Shown: piece after piece, positions 1,809 through 33,082 of the stretch
How the letters are laid out: the number at the start of each line of letters is the position of its first letter
How positions within the stretch are numbered: the stretch's first letter is position 1
NCBI RefSeq assembly: GCF_002777745.1
Contig: NZ_MEIO01000049.1
Coordinates: forward strand, 62,001-126,000
DNA: 64,000 nt
Source of the DNA: Snodgrassella alvi
GTDB lineage: Bacteria > Pseudomonadota > Gammaproteobacteria > Burkholderiales > Neisseriaceae
Reading direction: 5' to 3'
Notes under the pieces: generated by a model
What the model saw: the letters and a program-made list of their open reading frames with translations, nothing else
What the model was told of the DNA's origin: nothing
Databases searched by the model: none
Translations under genes and position numbers: made by a program

Positions 1809-1850
1809 CCTGAATTGATAAACTTAATCATCTTTAGATAGGAAGTAGCC

Positions 1851-3041
1851 ATGGCTAAAGAAAAATTCGAGCGGAGCAAACCGCACGTAAACGTTGGCAC
1901 CATCGGTCACGTTGACCATGGTAAAACCACATTGACCGCTGCAATTTGTACCATTCTGTCCAAGAAATTTGGTGGTGCAGCGAAAGCTTACGATCAGATT
2001 GACAATGCTCCGGAAGAAAAAGCCCGCGGCATTACCATTAATACTTCACACGTAGAATACGAAACCGCAGAACGTCACTATGCACACGTTGACTGCCCGG
2101 GACACGCTGACTACGTGAAAAACATGATTACCGGTGCTGCACAGATGGACGGCGCTATTCTGGTGGTATCTGCTGCTGATGGTCCAATGCCACAAACCCG
2201 TGAGCACATTCTGTTGGCACGTCAGGTAGGTGTACCTTACATCATCGTTTACATGAACAAATGCGACATGGTAGACGACGAAGAGTTGCTGGAACTGGTA
2301 GAAATGGAAATCCGTGATCTGCTGTCTAGCTATGAATTCCCAGGTGATGACATTCCATTGATTAAAGGTTCTGCACTGAAAGCATTGGAAGGTGATACTT
2401 CTGATATCGGCGAAGCTTCAATCATGGCGTTGGCCGATGCATTAGACAGCTACATTCCTACTCCGGAACGTGCAGTAGACAAACCATTCCTGTTGCCGAT
2501 TGAAGATGTATTCTCAATTTCAGGTCGTGGTACTGTAGTTACCGGTCGTGTAGAACGCGGTGTAATCAATGTAGGCGACGAAATTGAAATCGTTGGTCTG
2601 AAAGAAACCCAGAAAACCACCTGTACCGGCGTGGAAATGTTCCGCAAACTGCTGGATCAAGGTCAAGCTGGTGACAATGTAGGTGTATTGTTACGTGGTA
2701 CCAAGCGTGAAGAAGTAGAACGTGGTCAGGTATTGGCAAAACCGGGCAGCATCACTCCGCACACTAAATTCAAAGCAGAAGTGTATGTACTGAGCAAAGA
2801 AGAAGGTGGACGTCATACTCCATTCTTCGCAAATTACCGCCCACAATTCTATTTCCGTACTACAGACGTAACAGGCGCAGTAAGTCTGGCGGAAGGTGTT
2901 GAAATGGTAATGCCAGGTGAAAACGTAACTATTGATGTAGAACTGATTCACCCGATTGCTATGGAAGAAGGCTTACGCTTTGCGATCCGTGAAGGTGGCC
3001 GTACAGTTGGTGCCGGTGTGGTTGCTAAAGTTATCGCTTAA
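1851..3041 (+). CDS. tuf: Elongation factor Tu, copy 1
   Basis: This is a full-length 396-residue EF-Tu, the GTPase that delivers aminoacyl-tRNA to the ribosomal A site. The G1 loop GHVDHGKT spans residues 19-26, G3 is DCPGH and G4 is NKCD. Domains II and III are complete and end in GVVAKVIA. The start ATG at 1851 follows an AGGAAG site. The gene is downstream of tRNA-Tyr-Gly-Thr and is probably co-transcribed with them and with tRNA-Trp. A second copy at 18596-19786 encodes an identical protein; by eye only four synonymous bases differ. That near-identity points to gene conversion between the copies. Identification is secure; which copy deserves the name tufA or tufB is convention. Confidence 0.99.
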
Positions 3042-18521: not shown

Positions 18522-18555
18522 GATAACCTGAAAGTACTTGTACTTTCAGGTTATC
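18522..18555. repeat. 16-bp perfect hairpin between fusA and the second tuf
   Basis: GATAACCTGAAAGTAC (18522-18537) and its exact complement (18540-18555) are separated by TT. There is no uninterrupted T run after it, so it may slow or process the transcript, stabilise the fusA 3' end, or act as a partial terminator before tuf. Confidence 0.7.
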
Positions 18556-18595
18556 ATCGTTCTTTAATCGATCTTTATTCAAGGAAACTTAGCTC

Positions 18596-19786
18596 ATGGC
18601 TAAAGAAAAATTCGAGCGGAGCAAACCGCACGTAAACGTTGGCACCATCGGTCACGTTGACCATGGTAAAACCACATTGACCGCTGCAATTTGTACCATT
18701 CTGTCCAAGAAATTTGGTGGTGCAGCGAAAGCTTACGATCAGATTGACAATGCTCCGGAAGAAAAAGCCCGCGGCATTACCATTAATACTTCACACGTAG
18801 AATACGAAACCGCAGAACGTCACTATGCACACGTTGACTGCCCGGGACACGCTGACTACGTGAAAAACATGATTACCGGTGCTGCACAGATGGACGGCGC
18901 TATTCTGGTGGTATCTGCTGCTGATGGTCCAATGCCACAAACCCGTGAGCACATTCTGTTGGCACGTCAGGTAGGTGTACCTTACATCATCGTTTACATG
19001 AACAAATGCGACATGGTAGACGACGAAGAGTTGCTGGAACTGGTAGAAATGGAAATCCGTGATCTGCTGTCTAGCTATGAATTCCCAGGCGATGACATTC
19101 CATTGATTAAAGGTTCTGCACTGAAAGCATTGGAAGGTGATACTTCTGATATCGGCGAAGCTTCAATCATGGCGTTGGCCGATGCATTAGACAGCTACAT
19201 TCCTACTCCGGAACGTGCAGTAGACAAACCATTCCTGTTGCCGATTGAAGATGTATTCTCAATTTCAGGTCGTGGTACTGTAGTTACCGGTCGTGTAGAA
19301 CGCGGTGTAATCAATGTAGGCGACGAAATTGAAATCGTTGGTCTGAAAGAAACCCAGAAAACCACCTGTACCGGCGTGGAAATGTTCCGCAAACTGCTGG
19401 ATCAAGGTCAAGCTGGTGACAATGTAGGTGTATTGTTGCGTGGTACCAAGCGTGAAGAAGTAGAACGTGGTCAGGTATTGGCAAAACCGGGCAGCATCAC
19501 TCCGCACACTAAATTCAAAGCAGAAGTGTACGTACTGAGCAAAGAAGAAGGTGGACGTCATACTCCATTCTTCGCAAATTACCGCCCACAATTCTATTTC
19601 CGTACTACAGACGTAACAGGCGCAGTAAGTCTGGCGGAAGGTGTTGAAATGGTAATGCCAGGTGAAAACGTAACTATTGATGTAGAACTGATTCACCCGA
19701 TTGCTATGGAAGAAGGCTTACGCTTTGCGATTCGTGAAGGTGGCCGTACAGTTGGTGCCGGTGTGGTTGCTAAAGTTATCGCTTAA
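18596..19786 (+). CDS. tuf: Elongation factor Tu, copy 2
   Basis: This encodes a 396-residue EF-Tu identical in protein sequence to the copy at 1851-3041, with the same GTPase motifs. I find four synonymous differences: GGT/GGC near 19090, TTA/TTG near 19438, TAT/TAC near 19531 and ATC/ATT near 19732. The identity stops sharply at the ATG and at the stop codon; the flanks are unrelated. It has its own AAGGAAAC site at 18580-18587. In the str-operon position this copy is conventionally tufA. rpsJ follows after 18 bases, so tuf and rpsJ are probably co-transcribed. Confidence 0.99.
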
Positions 19787-20167: not shown

Positions 20168-20305
20168 TATATTTGTCATTTGCTACATGAATATAATCAA
20201 AATTAATCTATAAATATACCTAAATTATTGTAATTCCTAATTAAAATAATGCAGGCTAAAATCAGAATTAAATATCCCATAGCTAGTATACAACTCGCGT
20301 AAAAA

Positions 20306-20440
20306 CTACATTGCTTGTTTTGGTGTTTTATATTTAATTGGCGTCATGTTATTCAGTGCCTCATTAGGCCTTTCGGTGTTATATATCGTTAGCGATTCTT
20401 CGGTGATTGTTCTTGCCTGTTCCAGATTATTAAAAATATA
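20306..20440 (-). pseudogene. IS3-family transposase tail (fragment)
   Basis: On the minus strand about 42 codons encode the end of an OrfB transposase (motifs IYNTERPNEALNNMTP and KYKTPKQ) and stop at 20306-20308. The same C-terminus, slightly different, ends the adjacent larger relic. Everything upstream is missing; the fragment abuts the end of the next element at 20451. Confidence 0.8.
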
Positions 20441-20450
20441 TTGTAAATAC

Positions 20451-21609
20451 CCCAAAGTTAGTACAAGACTGAGGTAGAAAATTATGCTGCTTGTTTTAGT
20501 GTTTTATACTCACTTGGCGTCATATTATTTAATGCTTCATGAGGTCTTCTTGCGTTATAAATGGTTAGCCACTTTTCGGTTACCTTTCTTGTTTGTTCCA
20601 GATTATTAAATAGATATAAATCTAGTACATCTGTGTGATAGGTGCGATTAAATCGTTTAATATAGCCGTTTTGATATGGGTTACCTGCTTGAATATAATC
20701 TATGGTTTACCATGTGATTTTGCCCAGTCAATGAATATTTTTCCGGTAAATTCCGGTTTGTTATCTACTCGTATTTTGAGTGGATAGCCATGATATCCGG
20801 CCAATTTATCCCAAATAATAGGTAACCCTACCAGCCGGTAAACTAATTGCAATATCAATGCCTAATGCCTCACGATTAAAGTCATTGATGACATTGAAGG
20901 CTCTAAATCTGCGTTGATGGCAACTGCCGTCACTCATAAAATCCATTGACTAACATTCACCTAGCTTATTCGGTACTGATAGGTTTTCTGTGCTTCGCGC
21001 AAAAATACGTTGTTTACGCTTTACCCTGAGATTAAGCTTTAACTGGCAATATATTCGATGAACACGTTTATGATTCCAGTTATAGCCAAGCTTTCTGATA
21101 CGATTAAAATACTTAGGAAAGCCCCAGTGTAAATGCCTATCTGTGATAGCACTTAGTACCGACACAATCACCGAATCATCCGGTAACTTAAGTTGATAAT
21201 AGTAAGCACAGCGGCTTGAATCAACAATAGCGCAGCTCATGGCCATAGTAACAGAATGATTTTCTGGTAGTTGTACAGCACAGGCTTTACATGCTTGAGT
21301 AGGCACTATAGCTTTTTTATGATTTCCTTCTGAAGCTGGGGTTTTAAGCTCGGCAAACATCTGCTTAAGCTTACGATTTCCAGTTTCCAGTTGCTTTAAG
21401 CATTGATATCTGAGTTTTCTATACCACCGTATTTATCACGCCATTTATAGAAAGTTGAATTGCCCATACCATATTTACGACAGGGCTCCTTAACAGCAAC
21501 GCTGGTTTTACCTTATTTTAAAATGGATATGATTTGATGTTCAGTCATTTTTTTCATGTTTAAATCATTTGTGAAGTAATAAAAAAAATTTTCTAAGTAC
21601 TATTTAGGG
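20451..21609 (-). mobile_element. Decayed IS3-family insertion sequence
   Basis: This is a near full-length IS3-family element. Imperfect terminal inverted repeats can be seen: CCCAAAGTTAGTAC at 20451-20464 and, reversed, CCCTAAATAGTAC at the 21609 end. Inside are remains of OrfA and OrfB on the minus strand. The size (about 1.16 kb) fits the family. I could not define a target-site duplication. It is surrounded by other fragments of the same family. Confidence 0.75.
20482..21557 (-). pseudogene. Broken OrfA-OrfB transposase of the IS3 family
   Basis: OrfA begins at 21557 (MKKMTEHQIISIL) and keeps the helix-turn-helix motif KYGMGNSTFYKWRDKYGG, but an in-frame stop follows ISILK and a frameshift follows GGIENSDI. 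OrfB is readable over 20950-21360 and then continues in other frames: WSMDFMSDG-like, NDFNREALGIDIAISLPAG, VDNKPEFTGK and FNRTYHTDVLDLYLF, ending at 20482. Two acidic residues of the DDE triad can be read, in different frames. The protein cannot be made intact; mobility would need help in trans. Confidence 0.85.
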
Positions 21610-21621
21610 ATAGCTATAATC

Positions 21622-21905
21622 TGAAGGTGCTTGGAATTGATATTGCAGTCAGTTTATCTGCCGGTAGTGTTACGCGTTAACGGAATAAACAGGCACATAT
21701 TATTAAAAATAAGGGTTGATAATCAACTCGAATTTACCAGAAAATATTTATCAATTGGAAAAATCACATGATGCAACTACAGGTTATATCAAATCCGGTC
21801 GTACATTATTAGAATGGTTACATTGAATATTTAATTGGATATATTACACAGAAGGAGCTGATTTATATTTTTCTTAATAATTTGTATAAGGTGATAATAT
21901 GACCA
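21622..21905 (+). pseudogene. Heavily decayed IS3 OrfB fragment, opposite orientation
   Basis: Aligning by eye with the neighbouring element shows the same OrfB region on the plus strand. A LGIDIAVSLSAG-like stretch near 21632 corresponds to LGIDIAISLPAG. A GAATTTACC-rich stretch near 21732 corresponds to the region around the second DDE aspartate. The stretch from about 21754 to 21854 tracks the WAKSHG-to-TYHTD part base for base with many substitutions. Stops occur throughout. No gene function remains. Confidence 0.65.
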
Positions 21906-22495: not shown

Positions 22496-22674
22496 AATTT
22501 AAATAATTATTAGTGAAATGTAGCGTTTAAAAGGTATTGCCGATAATAAAGGTAGCGTTCTGCTACTCTTACGATAATATATTAATTTAAATAGGTTTCA
22601 AAACATAAATTGATGGAACATTAAATCAAATCTATAAGGTAAATGTTCTATTGTTAACACAGAAATCATGTAGA

Positions 22675-22990
22675 AAATAGTGCTGCCTGTTTCTGTACTT
22701 TATACTTGATCGTCGTGATGTTATTTAATAGCTTATGAAGGTTTTTCGATGTTATAAATCATTAGCCACTTTTTAGTTATATTTCATTGCTGGTGACGGA
22801 TTATAAAAAAGATAAAATCTAGTATTTCTATTGGATATGGACGGTTAAATTTATTGTTATACTGTGTAAGAGAGCTTAGTTAATAAGTTTTTAGTAAATT
22901 CCAAATAGCTATCCACTTCACTTCTTGATGAATAACCATGTTATTCGGCCAGCTGGTCTGATTAGCATTTAGTTCTCCTTGCTGGTAAAA
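22675..22990 (-). pseudogene. Third decayed copy of the IS3 OrfB tail
   Basis: The region aligns by eye with 20478-20810 of the larger relic. Shared stretches include GCTGC-TGTTT, TTTATACTT, ATTATTTAAT, GTTATAAAT-nn-TTAGCCACTTTT and ATAACCATG-TATTCGGCCA. It has many substitutions and indels and no usable frame. The rest of the 22496-23153 spacer shows no gene. Confidence 0.6.
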
Positions 22991-25028: not shown

Positions 25029-25928
25029 ATGTTACACACCTTGATTAAACATGATTTAAAGGCTTTGCAGGCTTTTGTGGCTATTGTGGAATGTCAGGGT
25101 GTTACTGCAGCACAAAAGCGGCTGAATATGTCGCAATCGGCTATCAGTACTCATCTGGCACATCTTGAGGAAAGTCTGGGTGTGATTCTATGCCGGCGTG
25201 GTCGTTCTGGTTTTGCCTTAACTAAGGCAGGACATCAGTTATATGAAGCCTGTACTTTATTGTTACAGGCAACTTCTGAATTTCATCGCGAAGTGCAAAA
25301 TATTAAATGGCATCGTTCGGTATTGTCTGGTACGTTGCGCATTGGGCTAGTAGAGTATTTGTCGTCTGATTTCCAGCGTATTTTCAATCAAGTAATTGCC
25401 AGCGCCTATCAGCATTATCCGGAATTGCGGTTGTCTGTAGATATCTGTGCACCGCAAGATATTGAAATTGCCATTGCCAATAATCAGATGGATCTTGGTA
25501 TTGGTTATTATTACAGTTTGCTGAAAAATCTGCACTATCAGTTGGTATTTGAAGAGCGTGAGTATATATATTGTCATGCCTCGCATCCGGCAGCTAAAAT
25601 CAAGGATTTAACGCTGAATTTACTTGCCGAAGACTATCAATGGGTAAAACGCACCTACGCTCGTCAGCAAGAAGGAAATAGTTTGATGAGCGGTAACACA
25701 ACTGCGGTGGCTCACAAGCAACATGCTACGCTGCTGTTTATTCTTGCAGGCAGTCATCTTGGTTTGTTGTCGGAAGAAATTGCTGAGCCTTATGTGCGCA
25801 GCGGTGTATTGATACCTTTGCTAACCCAGCAGGCAACTAATATTGTGAATTACTTTGCGGTAACCCGACCAACGCCTGATCCGCGGGTAAATTGGTTCCT
25901 GGGTGAGCTCAGTGGATTGCTGCCTTAA
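25029..25928 (+). CDS. LysR-family transcriptional regulator
   Basis: The 299-residue protein has an N-terminal winged helix-turn-helix (about residues 6-65: LKALQAFVAIVE, then MSQSAISTHLAHLEESLGV) and a periplasmic-binding-like effector domain from about 95 to the end. This is the standard LysR layout. Such proteins are tetrameric regulators that respond to a small metabolite, usually controlling a divergent or nearby gene. Here the neighbours are cyaY upstream in the same direction and decayed DNA downstream, so no target can be assigned. The ATG at 25029 has a GGGGCGGG stretch upstream. The ligand is unknown. Confidence 0.9.
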   Translation: MLHTLIKHDLKALQAFVAIVECQGVTAAQKRLNMSQSAISTHLAHLEESLGVILCRRGRSGFALTKAGHQLYEACTLLLQATSEFHREVQNIKWHRSVLSGTLRIGLVEYLSSDFQRIFNQVIASAYQHYPELRLSVDICAPQDIEIAIANNQMDLGIGYYYSLLKNLHYQLVFEEREYIYCHASHPAAKIKDLTLNLLAEDYQWVKRTYARQQEGNSLMSGNTTAVAHKQHATLLFILAGSHLGLLSEEIAEPYVRSGVLIPLLTQQATNIVNYFAVTRPTPDPRVNWFLGELSGLLP

Positions 25929-27149
25929 TGCAAAGTACTAACATGATTTAGGAATTGCTGTTAAGTACAGCTATAACTGATTTTTGGCTGTATAAGGAAT
26001 GATAAAGGTATCAATGGTTGTGGTCAGTGCTCTAAATACTCAGTATGCATCTTTGCACTTCGTAATGCTTTAAAATTTCCAGTACTACCACTACTACCAC
26101 TACTACCACTACAGTGTACGCTGCCCAGATGCTGTGCTGCTTCTCAAAAGACTTTTAACATCAGGTGATAATACAAATTTTCTTTGATTGGACGTTTGAG
26201 TTTATATCCAAATAGTGGGGTGCTAAATAGATTATCGCACCGGACAATGCCGATAAAAGGGTTTAGCAAAGGTTTGGTGTTGGAGTGCGCTGTAGCTGAA
26301 TGAGCGGCAAAACTGGTTGATGAATGATTTACAGGACGCGCAGTCCGCAAAGTTTAATAAAACCGGTAACTGCTACTGTTTTGAAACAAGACAGGCTATA
26401 AGTCAGGGATAAATATGAGGAGTTTACTACGGTATATTTGGTTGTATGGAAATAAACTTCTTTCAACATCCGCATCGCTAAAATCTTTACTCTCTATCCA
26501 GTTTGTTTGCGCAGTAGATTTTCTTGCAAGACTTAAATCTCTTTTAACCTGTGGGCGTTTGCGCCATGAGTGGTCGCGAAAATTGTCGGCAATTCATATT
26601 TTCAGGGTCGGGATTATCAGAAAGCCATTATGCCTGAGCTGATCAATGATTTTGGTATGCAAAGCGGGGGAGTGAACGGATAGTAATTGGTTGATGATTT
26701 TACCTCTATTCTATTGCCTGTGTTTCTAGTGCTTTTACTGTCACGATGATGCTCTGTGTCGAACGGTAAGCAATGGTAGCGAGTGGTCGTGTAAATACCA
26801 GTTTTCCAGAAAAATTTCACTGCTTAGACCACTGTTCTGTAATAGAACATGTGCTGTATAGGATAAGTCGGTCAACAGCGCACGTCGCAGTTTTAGAGTT
26901 TTAATTAATTTTAGTTCTGTTCGCAATGAAGAACCATAGCTATTCAGCAGGCTGCACACTTAGTTGGTGTGGGTATTATTGCTGGTGTTTCAGATAGCAG
27001 CAATTTCTTCATCTATAGTAATACTGCTTACCTTAAACGGTGCATTATTGACGCAGGTATCATCCAGAAGGCATGGTTGTCGGGTAAATTCCTGATAGGA
27101 AGTAGCTTATCTGCTGTATATGGATTTATTAGCATGAATTTAGTTGGTA
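25929..27149. other. 1.2 kb decayed spacer without an intact gene
   Basis: No frame here has the length, start context or family motifs of a real gene. A 71-codon minus-strand stretch (26741-26959) containing LKLRRALLTDLSYTAHVLL and ENWYLHDHSLPLL looks protein-like and is bounded by stops and shifts, so the spacer probably holds one or more rotted genes. I could not identify the ancestor. A short tandem repeat lies at 26082-26112. Confidence 0.5.
26082..26112. repeat. Short tandem repeat, unit CTACTACCA
   Basis: About 3.3 copies of the 9-base unit: a partial copy at 26083-26090, full copies at 26091-26099 and 26100-26108, then CTAC. It is intergenic, so there is no obvious phase-variable gene. 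Confidence 0.8.
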
Positions 27150-28349
27150 TCAATGAAAAGCAACAGGCACTCCATCCCATTCTATATCTGAAGTTGTCGC
27201 AGCCAGAAAACTGCTATGTGATGACATGGCTCGAAGCAGTATTTCTGCGGTAGGAACGGGTTGGATTAAATAAGGCAAGATATCCTCTTTTGTCCACACA
27301 GCATCGCACGCTTGCTGATAATCACGCCAGAAAGTTTTTTTGGTAAAAAATCGCCATATCTGGGGTGTAAATAGCATAACCAGATTATGCATAGCTGGTT
27401 GCAGATCATCCATCTTGAGTTGGTTGATGGGTAAATCGGTATCTGCCTCCATGGCTGCGTGAGCAATGGCTGTTTGTGTTGTTTGTGGCAACTGCTCCAG
27501 AAAGTGAATGCCGCTGGTGGCGCGGGGGTTGCATTCAAGCACGTATATTTTGCCCGCTGAGTCTTCGATGAAATCAAATCCCACCTGCCCATGATATTGG
27601 GTTTGTTTGGCAAAGTATTCAATAAAATGACGAATTTTTATTTTCTGCACTGGATCAAAATAAATGCCGGCACCCTGACCGACTCGGTATTTTGGTTGGT
27701 AGCAGCTATGAGCAACAAGCTGTCCATGCCTGATGATACTGTAACTACAGTATTCTTTACCTTGGATATATTGCTGTGCCACCCAGGGTTGCTGTGGAGT
27801 TGCTTGTATCTGGTTGTATTCAATAGTTGTTGGGCAGATTAAGGTATGAGTGGCGAAGCGCGAATAAGCAGGTTTAAACACCCATTGTTTGTTTGTTGAA
27901 AATTTTTGCTGTTTAAATGCGTCAAACTGGTTCTGATCAGTCAGTAATACCGTTTCGGGAGCAGAAACAGGCCAGTCTTGTGTAAGCTGGGCAAAATCAC
28001 CTTTGTGATGCAGTTGCGTTAATAGTGAAATAGAGCTGGTAAAAAGCTGGCAGGGGTGAGCCTGCTGAATAAGAGCATTGGCAGATGCCAGATAAAACAC
28101 TTCTTCGCAGTTTGGAATGATGGTATGAATTTTTTCCCTTACCAGTAGTTGTATCAATTGTTCTAGCCACTGTCTGGGTTGCTGTTTGGGTGAAGGCAGA
28201 CGGGTATAAGTTAACGTATATCTGCTAAAACGGCTTATGGCATAGCCTAAGCTTTCTGCCATGTGTACCCGATGGCCTGCCTTGGCCAGAAGGCGCGCCC
28301 ATGTCAGACTGGCAGGTGATCTGGCTCCTAGAATAAGAATATTGTGCAT
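27150..28349 (-). CDS. ATP-grasp domain protein of unknown substrate
   Basis: The 399-residue protein has an N-terminal Rossmann-like pre-ATP domain (ILILGARSPASLTWARLLAKAG, about 4-25) and an ATP-grasp fold. VFKPAYSRF (157-165) carries the nucleotide-binding lysine, GQVGFDF lies at 254-260, and LECNPRATSG (271-280) supplies the Mg-binding Glu272 and Asn274. It resembles carbamoyl-phosphate-synthase-like ligases that join a carboxylate to an amine or thiol. The ATG at 28349 is clear. It is not in an operon; decayed DNA lies on both sides, so the pathway may have been lost around it. The substrate cannot be named from the sequence. Confidence 0.85.
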   Translation of the reverse strand: MHNILILGARSPASLTWARLLAKAGHRVHMAESLGYAISRFSRYTLTYTRLPSPKQQPRQWLEQLIQLLVREKIHTIIPNCEEVFYLASANALIQQAHPCQLFTSSISLLTQLHHKGDFAQLTQDWPVSAPETVLLTDQNQFDAFKQQKFSTNKQWVFKPAYSRFATHTLICPTTIEYNQIQATPQQPWVAQQYIQGKEYCSYSIIRHGQLVAHSCYQPKYRVGQGAGIYFDPVQKIKIRHFIEYFAKQTQYHGQVGFDFIEDSAGKIYVLECNPRATSGIHFLEQLPQTTQTAIAHAAMEADTDLPINQLKMDDLQPAMHNLVMLFTPQIWRFFTKKTFWRDYQQACDAVWTKEDILPYLIQPVPTAEILLRAMSSHSSFLAATTSDIEWDGVPVAFH

Positions 28350-28439
28350 AACTGGGTATAGCGCTTTAAATAGAAAATATAGAGGTACAGAGACTATTAG
28401 AATTAGACCCTGACTTCAGAAAATAAACTGCATCTATTG

Positions 28440-28740
28440 TGACAGAATTTGATTCTATTTGCTTGTATCTATGTTGTATTGCAACAAGATAAAGAGCTGA
28501 TATTAGATATTGATAATAAAGTGGTTATGATATGTAGTTCTGTTCCGAATTGTTGATAAATGGCACACATTTTTTTCCAGATGTTGCGTTGATGGGTATG
28601 ACGCATAAGGTATTGGCTGCCAAAACATACGGGGATCTGCTTAGTGTGCGTTGCCTGAACTGAATAAAGATTAGTTAGAAGCATTTTGTGTTACTTTGTT
28701 TACACTTGTTGTATGTTTTGGTTGAACACCGGCAGATTCT
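28440..28740 (+). pseudogene. Rotted partial duplicate of thiL
   Basis: This stretch aligns by eye with the first ~330 bases of thiL (29010-29340) just downstream. Shared blocks are GAATTTGATT-TATTTG, TTGTAT near 28463, CACATTTTTTTCCAGATGTTGCG at 28563-28585, GACGCATAAGGTA-TGGCTG, GCTTAGTGTG-CGTTGCCTGAACT and AATAAAGATT-nn-TAGAAGCATTTTGT. Deletions remove the GDDA region and part of the DMAAMGAKP region, and stops break every frame. It is a non-functional relic of a tandem duplication or of a failed recombination. Confidence 0.85.
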
Positions 28741-29009
28741 TTTGTTTTTCCTCTCATATATGTGATGATTGCTTTCTATATATGGAGTTATTTAACTGAC
28801 TTGCTCTCGATATATTATATAGATAAGTAATATAATTTTATTGTGAATTGCTTATATAACGATTTAGTTCTTAATGAGGTTTAAAATTTAATTTATAACT
28901 ATTTTGGCTAAAACCATTCTTACTTGCTTACAGCAACAAACTTTTCTGGAAAGATTAAATCAGACATCTTAAAATCAGAATCCGATTTGAATTATAAAGC
29001 CAATCTATC

Positions 29010-29972
29010 GTGAATGAATTTGATTTTATTCATCAATATTTGTATCGTCAGCAACAGGATGAGCAACTTATTCTGGGAATCGGTGATGATGCAGCTATCG
29101 TACGTCCGCGCAGCGGTTATGATCTGCATTTTAGTACTGATATGCTTGTAGGTGGAACACATTTTTTTCCAGATGTTGCGCCGGCAGATCTGGCGCATAA
29201 AGTACTGGCTGTCAATCTTTCGGACATGGCGGCCATGGGAGCTAAACCACGTTGGGCTTTGCTTAGTGTGGCGTTGCCTGAACTAAATAAAGATTGGATA
29301 GAAGCATTTTGTAATTCCTTGTTTGCACTTGCCGCGCGTTTTGGTGTAACACTCATAGGTGGTGATACCACTAAAGGAAATTGGGTTTTTAATGTTAATA
29401 TTATTGGCGAAACCCCTTGTCGGCAGTCATTAAGGCGCGATGCAGCTGAAGCTGGTGATGATATCTGGGTGTCTGGTTTACTTGGATTGGCTGCTGCTGC
29501 TCTGGATGTGCACTGGAATAAGGTTACTTTACCTGCTGCGATATTTGCCCAATGCGAAGAGAGACGATTGCGTCCTCAGCCACGAGTGGCTTTAGGACAG
29601 GAGCTATTATCTTTAGCACATGCGGCACAGGATATATCCGATGGTCTGGCGCAAGATATCGGGCATATTCTTCAAGCCAGTAAGGTTGGCGCAGAAATTA
29701 ATGCAGATTTAATTCCTACGTTGACAACTTTAAAACAGCAAGCGCTGCCGTTGGCACAGCTAAGACAATGGTTGTTAGCCGGAGGCGATGATTATGAGCT
29801 GGTATTTACCGCCTCGCCGGTGCAACGTGCGGCGATTATGGCTGCTGCTGAGAGAACCGGCACGCCCGTAACCCGTATCGGCGTCATTACCGCAGGCGCT
29901 CAATTGCATTTACATGATCATGCGGGTAACGTGATACAACTACAGCAACAAGGATTTGATCATTTTGTCTAA
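29010..29972 (+). CDS. thiL: Thiamine-monophosphate kinase
   Basis: ThiL phosphorylates thiamine monophosphate with ATP to give thiamine diphosphate, the active cofactor. The 320-residue sequence has the N-terminal GIGDDAA (23-29) metal and nucleotide motif, the MLVGGTHF segment, NLSDMAAMGA, IGGDTT, the DISDGLAQD motif and the AGGDDYEL motif, all family-defining. The GTG at 29010 is the only good start; an ATG four bases downstream (29014) is out of frame. It overlaps the next gene, pgpA, an arrangement common in proteobacteria. A decayed copy lies just upstream. Confidence 0.95.
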   Translation: MNEFDFIHQYLYRQQQDEQLILGIGDDAAIVRPRSGYDLHFSTDMLVGGTHFFPDVAPADLAHKVLAVNLSDMAAMGAKPRWALLSVALPELNKDWIEAFCNSLFALAARFGVTLIGGDTTKGNWVFNVNIIGETPCRQSLRRDAAEAGDDIWVSGLLGLAAAALDVHWNKVTLPAAIFAQCEERRLRPQPRVALGQELLSLAHAAQDISDGLAQDIGHILQASKVGAEINADLIPTLTTLKQQALPLAQLRQWLLAGGDDYELVFTASPVQRAAIMAAAERTGTPVTRIGVITAGAQLHLHDHAGNVIQLQQQGFDHFV

Positions 29973-30477
29973 GACTGAAACAACAACGATACCAGTTACG
30001 CCAACATGGCGCTGGCTATGCAGGTATCCAGTCTGCTGGCTGGGCTTTGGCTTTGGGACGGGGCTGGCGCCGAAAGCTCCTGGAACATTTGGCACATTAC
30101 CTGCCATTCCACTGGCCGCATGCTGGCTGATGCTGAATTTACCGTTCTGGTACAACATTGTGTTTGCTGGACTACTGTTTCTAGTGGGTATTTTTATTTG
30201 TGACTACACGGAACAAGCATTATGCCGGCAAGATTATGGCGGCATTGTCTGGGACGAAATTGCAGCCATGATGCTGATTTTATTTTGTATACCAACAAAT
30301 TGGATTTGGTGGATGGCAGGCTTTGCGGTTTTCCGGTTCTTTGATGCGGTAAAACCATGGCCTATCCGCTGGTTTGATGCGCGTGTTCACGGTGGTTTTG
30401 GTATTATGCTAGACGATTTGATTGCAGCTCTGTTCAGCCTGCTGGTTTTATTACCGGCTGTATATCTGCTGGTTTAA
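29965..30477 (+). CDS. pgpA: Phosphatidylglycerophosphatase A
   Basis: PgpA removes phosphate from phosphatidylglycerol phosphate to form phosphatidylglycerol in the inner membrane. The protein shows the family motif GFGTGLAPKAPGTFGTLPA near the N-terminus, several membrane helices and YGGIVWDEIAAM, which carries metal-binding acidic residues. I choose TTG 29965 (MSKTETTT, 170 residues), because the AAGGA at 29950-29954 is well spaced for it; TTG 29956 is the alternative. It overlaps the thiL end by eight bases, indicating translational coupling. Confidence 0.92.
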   Translation: MSKTETTTIPVTPTWRWLCRYPVCWLGFGFGTGLAPKAPGTFGTLPAIPLAACWLMLNLPFWYNIVFAGLLFLVGIFICDYTEQALCRQDYGGIVWDEIAAMMLILFCIPTNWIWWMAGFAVFRFFDAVKPWPIRWFDARVHGGFGIMLDDLIAALFSLLVLLPAVYLLV

Positions 30478-30619
30478 TCAGGCAGAAGGGCTGAAAATAG
30501 CTTAGACAACTAAATGTTTAGCCAGTAAGCGGTTAGAATAAGTTATGCTAGCTATGGCAGTCATGGTCATAGCCGTTGGTGATAATAAATGAAATCTTGA
30601 TTGGGAAAAGGAAAACAGC

Positions 30620-33045: not shown

Positions 33046-33082
33046 AAAATAAAAGCCAGTTGTCAAAACTGGCTTTTATTTT
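33046..33082 (+). terminator. Terminator after tRNA-Glu
   Basis: A 15-bp stem (33046-33060 with 33068-33082) with a 7-base loop has a GCCAGT core and A/T-rich flanks that serve both directions. It starts four bases after the tRNA 3' end. Confidence 0.9.

Follow-up and report, generated by a model that had tools for sequence, protein, structure and literature searches.

The window analysed here is a 64-kb stretch of the genome of Snodgrassella alvi (G000; 2.6 Mb, 67 contigs), in which the thiamine-phosphate kinase gene thiL is preceded, on the same strand, by a truncated and decayed copy of its own front end. We refer to the leader ahead of this relic as P1 and to the leader of the working gene as P2. 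The locus was compared within a genus set of 14 genomes including G000, among which are S. alvi Nev4-2 (G009), S. gandavensis (G010), S. alvi App4-8 (G002) and S. communis (G003). A tree of two genes downstream of thiL (up to 2.3 kb, 1.4 kb for G000; a local tree and not a genome tree) places G000 as sister to G010, G009 and G002, with G003 outside. The features of the locus are as follows.

26021–27175, minus strand: remnant of a 400-aa gene that is found after the ATP-grasp gene in relatives (38% identity over residues 8–373 of the G001 protein; short open reading frames only).
27150–28349, minus strand: ATP-grasp protein gene, open, 399 aa, adjoining the relic (PF02655 above cut-off; NF005315 at 376 bits, below its cut-off of 406).
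28350–28438, no strand assigned: what is left of P1, the old leader; it spans 89 bases from the ATP-grasp gene to the relic, where G003 has about 238 (aligned by eye with G003, G004 and the grasp side of G002, G009 and G010).
28388–28729, plus strand: thiL relic, broken by stops and frameshifts and made up of part of the old leader and codons 1–114 of an older thiL start (alignment, shuffles, repeats).
28439–28520, plus strand: start of the relic gene, a GTG followed by codons 2 to about 27; its type is that of G003 (S. communis) and G004 (12 of 15 scorable sites, clade, AU tests).
28521–28729, plus strand: relic body, resembling G003/G004 less than it does the working gene and G009 (own/G009 type at 11 of 14 scorable sites; AU p 0.0044 against a G003/G004 grouping).
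28730–28812, no strand assigned: spacer at the relic/P2 junction, where sister genomes carry a decarboxylase gene (weak likenesses only).
28813–29009, plus strand: present thiL leader P2, of the decarboxylase-thiL kind found in G002, G009 and G010 (identity, pairwise table, tree).
29010–29972, plus strand: thiL, intact, 320 aa (TIGR01379, E 9e-104; open reading frame).

The 400-aa protein of G001 had no Pfam or NCBIfam match. The neighbouring genes that we call LysR, pgpA and dnaQ are presumably such from the look of their proteins.

Elsewhere in the window there is a direct repeat of about 1.22 kb (1824–3041 and 18564–19786; 98.9% identical), possibly an insertion sequence, and a set of diverged repeats at 20269–20862, 21633–21884 and 22670–22850 (69–76% identity, one pair inverted). 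Near-perfect palindromes occur at 18522–18555 (34 bases, 94% self-complementary) and 33046–33082 (37 bases, 92%).

The relic is a pseudogene fragment of thiL

Local alignment, with a score of 110, matched 28388–28729 to 28961–29352, an interval covering leader bases and codons 1–114 of working thiL. Shuffles of 28380–28860 that preserved dinucleotides (300 in all) gave a mean of 13.5 and a maximum of 21, and chance similarity is therefore rejected. The same relationship was recovered in a repeat search as a series of relic/thiL pairs, including stretches of 104, 82, 37 and 35 nt with 74%, 82%, 78% and 71% identity, respectively, and in a self-comparison of the whole window as a single match of 68% over 241 columns (E 7e-22). 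Likeness is already present, weakly, ahead of the gene, from about 28388; it breaks off abruptly at 28729 (thiL base 343). An earlier note on this DNA had reported a rotted thiL copy upstream of the working gene, and that copy is real; the interval given for it, 28440–28740, comes near the true extent but misses the 5′ flank. Its run of 23 identical bases at 28563–28585 likewise exists, but the run, the longest shared by the two copies, is 24 bases long and lies at 28565–28588, corresponding to 29157–29180.

The internal deletions and stops mentioned in the same note are borne out. The largest losses relative to thiL are of 22, 21 and 7 bases, in-frame stops in the thiL frame lie at 28535, 28672 and 28723, and, of the eight gaps that separate aligned blocks from 28420 onward, six are frameshifting. 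Differences between the relic and the working gene are distributed over the codon positions as 33/97, 19/96 and 28/95; this spread is unlike that between working copies, for which the G000 and G003 genes differ at 14, 6 and 50 of 120, and argues for decay under little constraint. With similarity beyond chance and the open frame destroyed, the relic is a pseudogene fragment of thiL. DNA searches of the G000 genome found no further thiL copy, nor was any 3′ part of a second thiL found, similarity stopping at codon 114.

A phage origin of the relic was rejected, as 28360–29980 has no match among phage records. The relic still lies directly upstream of thiL and reads in the same direction, as it would had it been retained because it serves thiL, for instance as a regulatory spacer or a leader RNA. 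We regard this as highly improbable. Rfam, searched with 25900–30600 to E 1, gave no match, on which ground a regulatory RNA reading was rejected; no such copy was found in G002, G009 or G010; and the differences over codon positions are spread as in decay. No function for the relic is indicated.

Layouts of the locus across the genus

As far as the searched cargo proteins tell, the interval between LysR and thiL differs widely in content. It measures about 57 bases in G011, holds a 377-aa gene in G008 and none of the searched cargo proteins in G013, and carries a PLP decarboxylase gene (PF00282) alone in G006. The 400-aa gene and the ATP-grasp gene (PF02655) are present in G003, G004 and G005, with an extra 188-aa gene sitting within the 400-aa gene of G003, and G007, G002, G009 and G010 have the 400-aa gene, grasp and decarboxylase, several of these genes being broken. 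The interval is unreadable in G012 (contig end) and split over two contigs in G001. The grasp gene is broken in G002, G009 and G010 and open in G000; the decarboxylase frame is full-length in G010 (486 codons), runs for 389 codons in G002 and survives as fragments only in G009. A search of the G000 genome at E 0.001 found no decarboxylase, and no remnant of one was found in the window, the sole match (E 1.9) lying elsewhere.

Two states were compared among near relatives, namely grasp-P1-thiL (G003, G004) and grasp-decarboxylase-P2-thiL (G002, G009, G010). About 238 bases separate the ATP-grasp gene from the thiL start in G003 and G004, where thiL reads away from grasp. By an alignment made by eye, the relic of G000 occupies this P1-thiL place beside grasp, with a shortened P1. 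Also by eye, P1 beside grasp is common to G003, G004 and, as far as the decarboxylase junction, G002, G009 and G010; because it is present in both groups, grasp-P1-thiL is probably the older layout there.

These comparisons bear on the possibility that the exchange ran in the reverse direction, an ATP-grasp gene and a truncated G003-type thiL start having been imported and having replaced a decarboxylase before the resident thiL. This would accord with the ATP-grasp protein of the window being closest to that of G003 (79%), with the adjoining remnant of the 400-aa gene aligning best with G003 (78% over 830 bases), and with grasp being broken in the three sisters and open in G000. However, the grasp tree leaves G000 and G003 unsettled against the sister group, which equally fits plain descent, and since P1 beside grasp also occurs in G002, G009 and G010, an import is unnecessary. 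We therefore consider the reverse direction quite improbable.

The front of the relic belongs to another haplotype

Thirty-six diagnostic sites separate the thiL of G000/G009 from that of G003/G004; 29 of them can be scored in the relic and seven cannot, because of a gap or a third letter. Up to base 65, 12 sites are of the G003/G004 type and three of the window's own type, while from base 116 on the numbers are three and 11 (Fisher p 0.003 for the shift along the relic, with a split that was picked after the pattern was seen). A tree of the whole 5′ part leaves the position of the relic unsettled, and this part was therefore split at a point taken from the site pattern.

The front tree was built from 60 upstream and 81 gene bases (141 columns) in 16 rows, omitting G012, for which there is too little upstream sequence; a second version of 14 rows also left out G005 and G011. 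The flank and start of the relic group with G003, G004, G008 and G013 (support 99/98). For this stretch, which is short, with a relic branch that is long, AU tests rejected a union of the relic with the working gene (p-AU 0.0017 with 16 rows, 0.0006 with 14 rows) and with G000, G009, G002 and G010 (0.00014 and 0.00027); a narrower union with only G003 and G004, inside this five-row group, is compatible with the tests without being demonstrated by them (p 0.205, 0.217). From alignment column 100 onward, in the later part, the tree joins the relic to the working gene and G009, though not firmly (86/63), and here it is the union with G003/G004 that is rejected (p-AU 0.0044). Thus only the front part of the relic belongs to the other haplotype, and the displaced end and that of the intact gene are different alleles. 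The question raised by the earlier note, whether the relic is closer to the thiL of another species, is answered in the affirmative for the leader and the first ∼80 bases (G003, G004, G008, G013), but not for the later part. As the relic body is not of the G003/G004 type, the relic is not of one haplotype throughout, and a body that is native, or was later converted, must be assumed.

The relic has diverged by 25–28% from the thiL genes of G000, G009, G002, G010, G003 and G004. Third-position divergence between G000 and G002 is 112/474 and 82/300 codons (24% and 27%) in two genes. That the relic has diverged about as far as third positions between species argues that the event is old.

Leaders and the junction

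The leader P2 of the window shares 72–76% identity over 182–185 bases with the decarboxylase-thiL leader of G002, G009 and G010, and its match with G009 extends over 201 bases. Its branch in the leader tree is long (0.30), so that its place in that tree is not firm. Upstream of the start, the leaders of the relic and the working gene align weakly.

At the junction, 28725–28845 has no other match in the G000 genome. When 28730–28829 was compared with 15 other loci, 13 gave chance-level results. The other two were L051 (reverse strand, just before thiL of G012; score 23, 0/100 shuffles) and L038 (beyond the far end of the broken decarboxylase gene, G004:C79; score 24, 1/100 shuffles); as 15 loci were tried, both likenesses are leads only. 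The likeness to L038 would fit a decarboxylase gene lost from between the relic and P2 sides.

The relic had been described as a tandem copy, and it does lie close to thiL in direct orientation, but a plain tandem duplicate it is not, since its flank and start are of another haplotype. A single genome could still have duplicated its thiL front end in tandem, with a later transfer overwriting the working leader and first ∼100 bases. The close, direct arrangement, the position of the relic body nearest the working gene and G009 (86/63) and the weak alignment of the two leaders upstream of the start all speak in favour of such a history. Yet two events would be needed where displacement of the front end requires one, the flank and start of the relic are of a different haplotype from those of the working gene, and P2 runs for 180 to 197 bases, to about the point at which the decarboxylase begins in relatives. 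Duplication with overwriting seems to us unlikely; it stays a rival because of the geometry of the cross-over, considered below, and because the spacer at 28730–28812 has no settled source.

Identity breaks within working thiL

The thiL protein of the window is nearest to that of G009 (95% identical). Compared with thiL of G003, the working gene is 65% identical before base ∼72 and 84% identical after it (2/500 permutations as strong), and the jump lies near the place where the relic switches type. For G004 the corresponding break falls at base 129 (72%, then 85%; 7/500 permutations), and for the pair G000–G006 identity is 86% up to base ∼404 and 66% after (0/500 permutations). Identity breaks inside thiL are thus found in several genome pairs.

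Within thiL (29010–29972), bases ∼160–800 are 94–100% identical between G000 and G009, as compared with ∼86–92% in neighbouring genes, and this inner tract looks like a separate, more recent exchange. The G004 gene (L043 5150–6109, G004:C36) is 89–98% like that of S. communis per 80-base step, while the tree of the two downstream genes puts G004 far from S. communis; on this comparison, thiL in G004 was probably exchanged too.

Truncated thiL copies in other genomes

DNA searches found a second 5′ copy of thiL in three of the 14 genomes, G000, G001 and G004, each of them truncated; two of the 13 other genomes of the genus therefore carry one. The ends lie near codons 114 (G000), 121 (G001) and 171 (G004), and a shared end point was rejected on these positions. 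The G001 contig C57 follows the gene order of G007 as far as thiL base 362, after which come other genes; contig C68 of G001 has thiL complete from −112 on, beside a multi-copy repeat at the contig start. The 474 bases that the two share are 95% alike, and the contigs are not joined in the assembly; G001 may be a fresher parallel of a stranded thiL start. The multi-copy repeat (L094 1–185, G001:C68), which has related copies also in the G000 genome, looks like the end of an insertion sequence. The truncated copy of G004 adjoins a broken decarboxylase gene and is on a different contig from the working thiL.

Discussion

The suggestion that thiL had undergone a past duplication or replacement, with the older copy now decaying, is supported by these data, and the evidence favours replacement. 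We think it likely that thiL originally began with what is now the relic, and that recombination bringing in a new leader and start moved this front end aside; the route, donor and direction of the exchange we infer. The ancestral thiL of the lineage would have had the P1 leader and start, beside the ATP-grasp gene. Incoming DNA carrying a decarboxylase gene, P2 and the first part of thiL would have recombined inside the resident thiL, near bases 70–130 or further in, its other end joining without much homology. In this way the thiL body would have gained a new start and the old start would have been stranded upstream as a truncated piece, which would later have decayed, the decarboxylase being lost in the G000 lineage; G002, G009 and G010 would have lost the old start. 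These losses, of the relic in the other three genomes and of the decarboxylase in G000, we also infer. Because P2 occurs in G000 and in all three sisters, the exchange probably predates the split of G000 from G002, G009 and G010.

A cross-over at bases 70–130 leaves thiL bases ∼130–343 in both copies, and plain linear replacement is therefore insufficient. The duplicated bases could have arisen by a single cross-over with a circle, or if the cross-over lay past codon 114 and conversion came afterwards. The incoming DNA may plausibly have arrived by transformation. None of six Neisseria-type DNA uptake words occurs in the 64-kb window.

Snodgrassella and Neisseria belong to the same bacterial family, and minimal mobile elements of Neisseria were reportedly described by Saunders and Snyder in 2002. 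Later accounts portray such elements as sets of whole genes that vary from strain to strain while the two conserved genes enclosing them stay the same, and as incorporated solely by homologous recombination in the flanking genes (PMC3898611, PMC3082526). The locus described here resembles them, as so portrayed, in that the LysR-like gene and thiL enclose gene sets that differ between strains. It differs in that part of the flanking core gene is itself exchanged, with the old front end left behind, and in that several cargo genes are broken. As regards exchange by homologous recombination alone, there are the identity breaks inside thiL, but also the multi-copy repeat end in G001 and the unexplained junction at 28730–28812.

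A second comparison is with the displacement of Rhs C-termini, which PMC8125069 reports also for S. alvi. There, as here, recombination within a gene supplies a new end and leaves the old end orphaned beside the gene, and by the AU tests the end preserved in the relic is another allele than that of the intact gene. The thiL case is, however, a mirror image, in which the 5′ end and leader of a housekeeping gene are displaced upstream, and the thiL orphan has decayed, whereas in that text an Rhs orphan is a possible reservoir (PMC8125069). Finally, one homologous and one non-homologous junction, as in homology-facilitated illegitimate recombination, would yield the order observed; a deletion of about the size of the insert usually accompanies this process (PMC3240628). 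Junction microhomology is no longer readable in the window, and homology-facilitated illegitimate recombination is a possible mechanism.

Titles and abstract openings listed for Snodgrassella recombination, transformation, pseudogenes or thiL duplication contain no report on the thiL locus. The relic records a stage in the turnover of this variable locus that would otherwise have been lost, since G000 holds pieces of both layouts; we regard it as a fossil of ordinary replacement at such a locus, with no new system indicated. More tentatively, and with some doubt on our part, the 5′ third of thiL might be a recurrent exchange handle in Snodgrassella, incoming gene sets carrying a leader and front end as a homology arm. 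If so, thiL would repeatedly receive a new start and have its old one stranded, a 5′ counterpart of Rhs C-terminal displacement. The relic is also a reminder that the front third and the body of a core metabolic gene may differ in history, making a mosaic of the gene, which matters where thiL serves as a marker.
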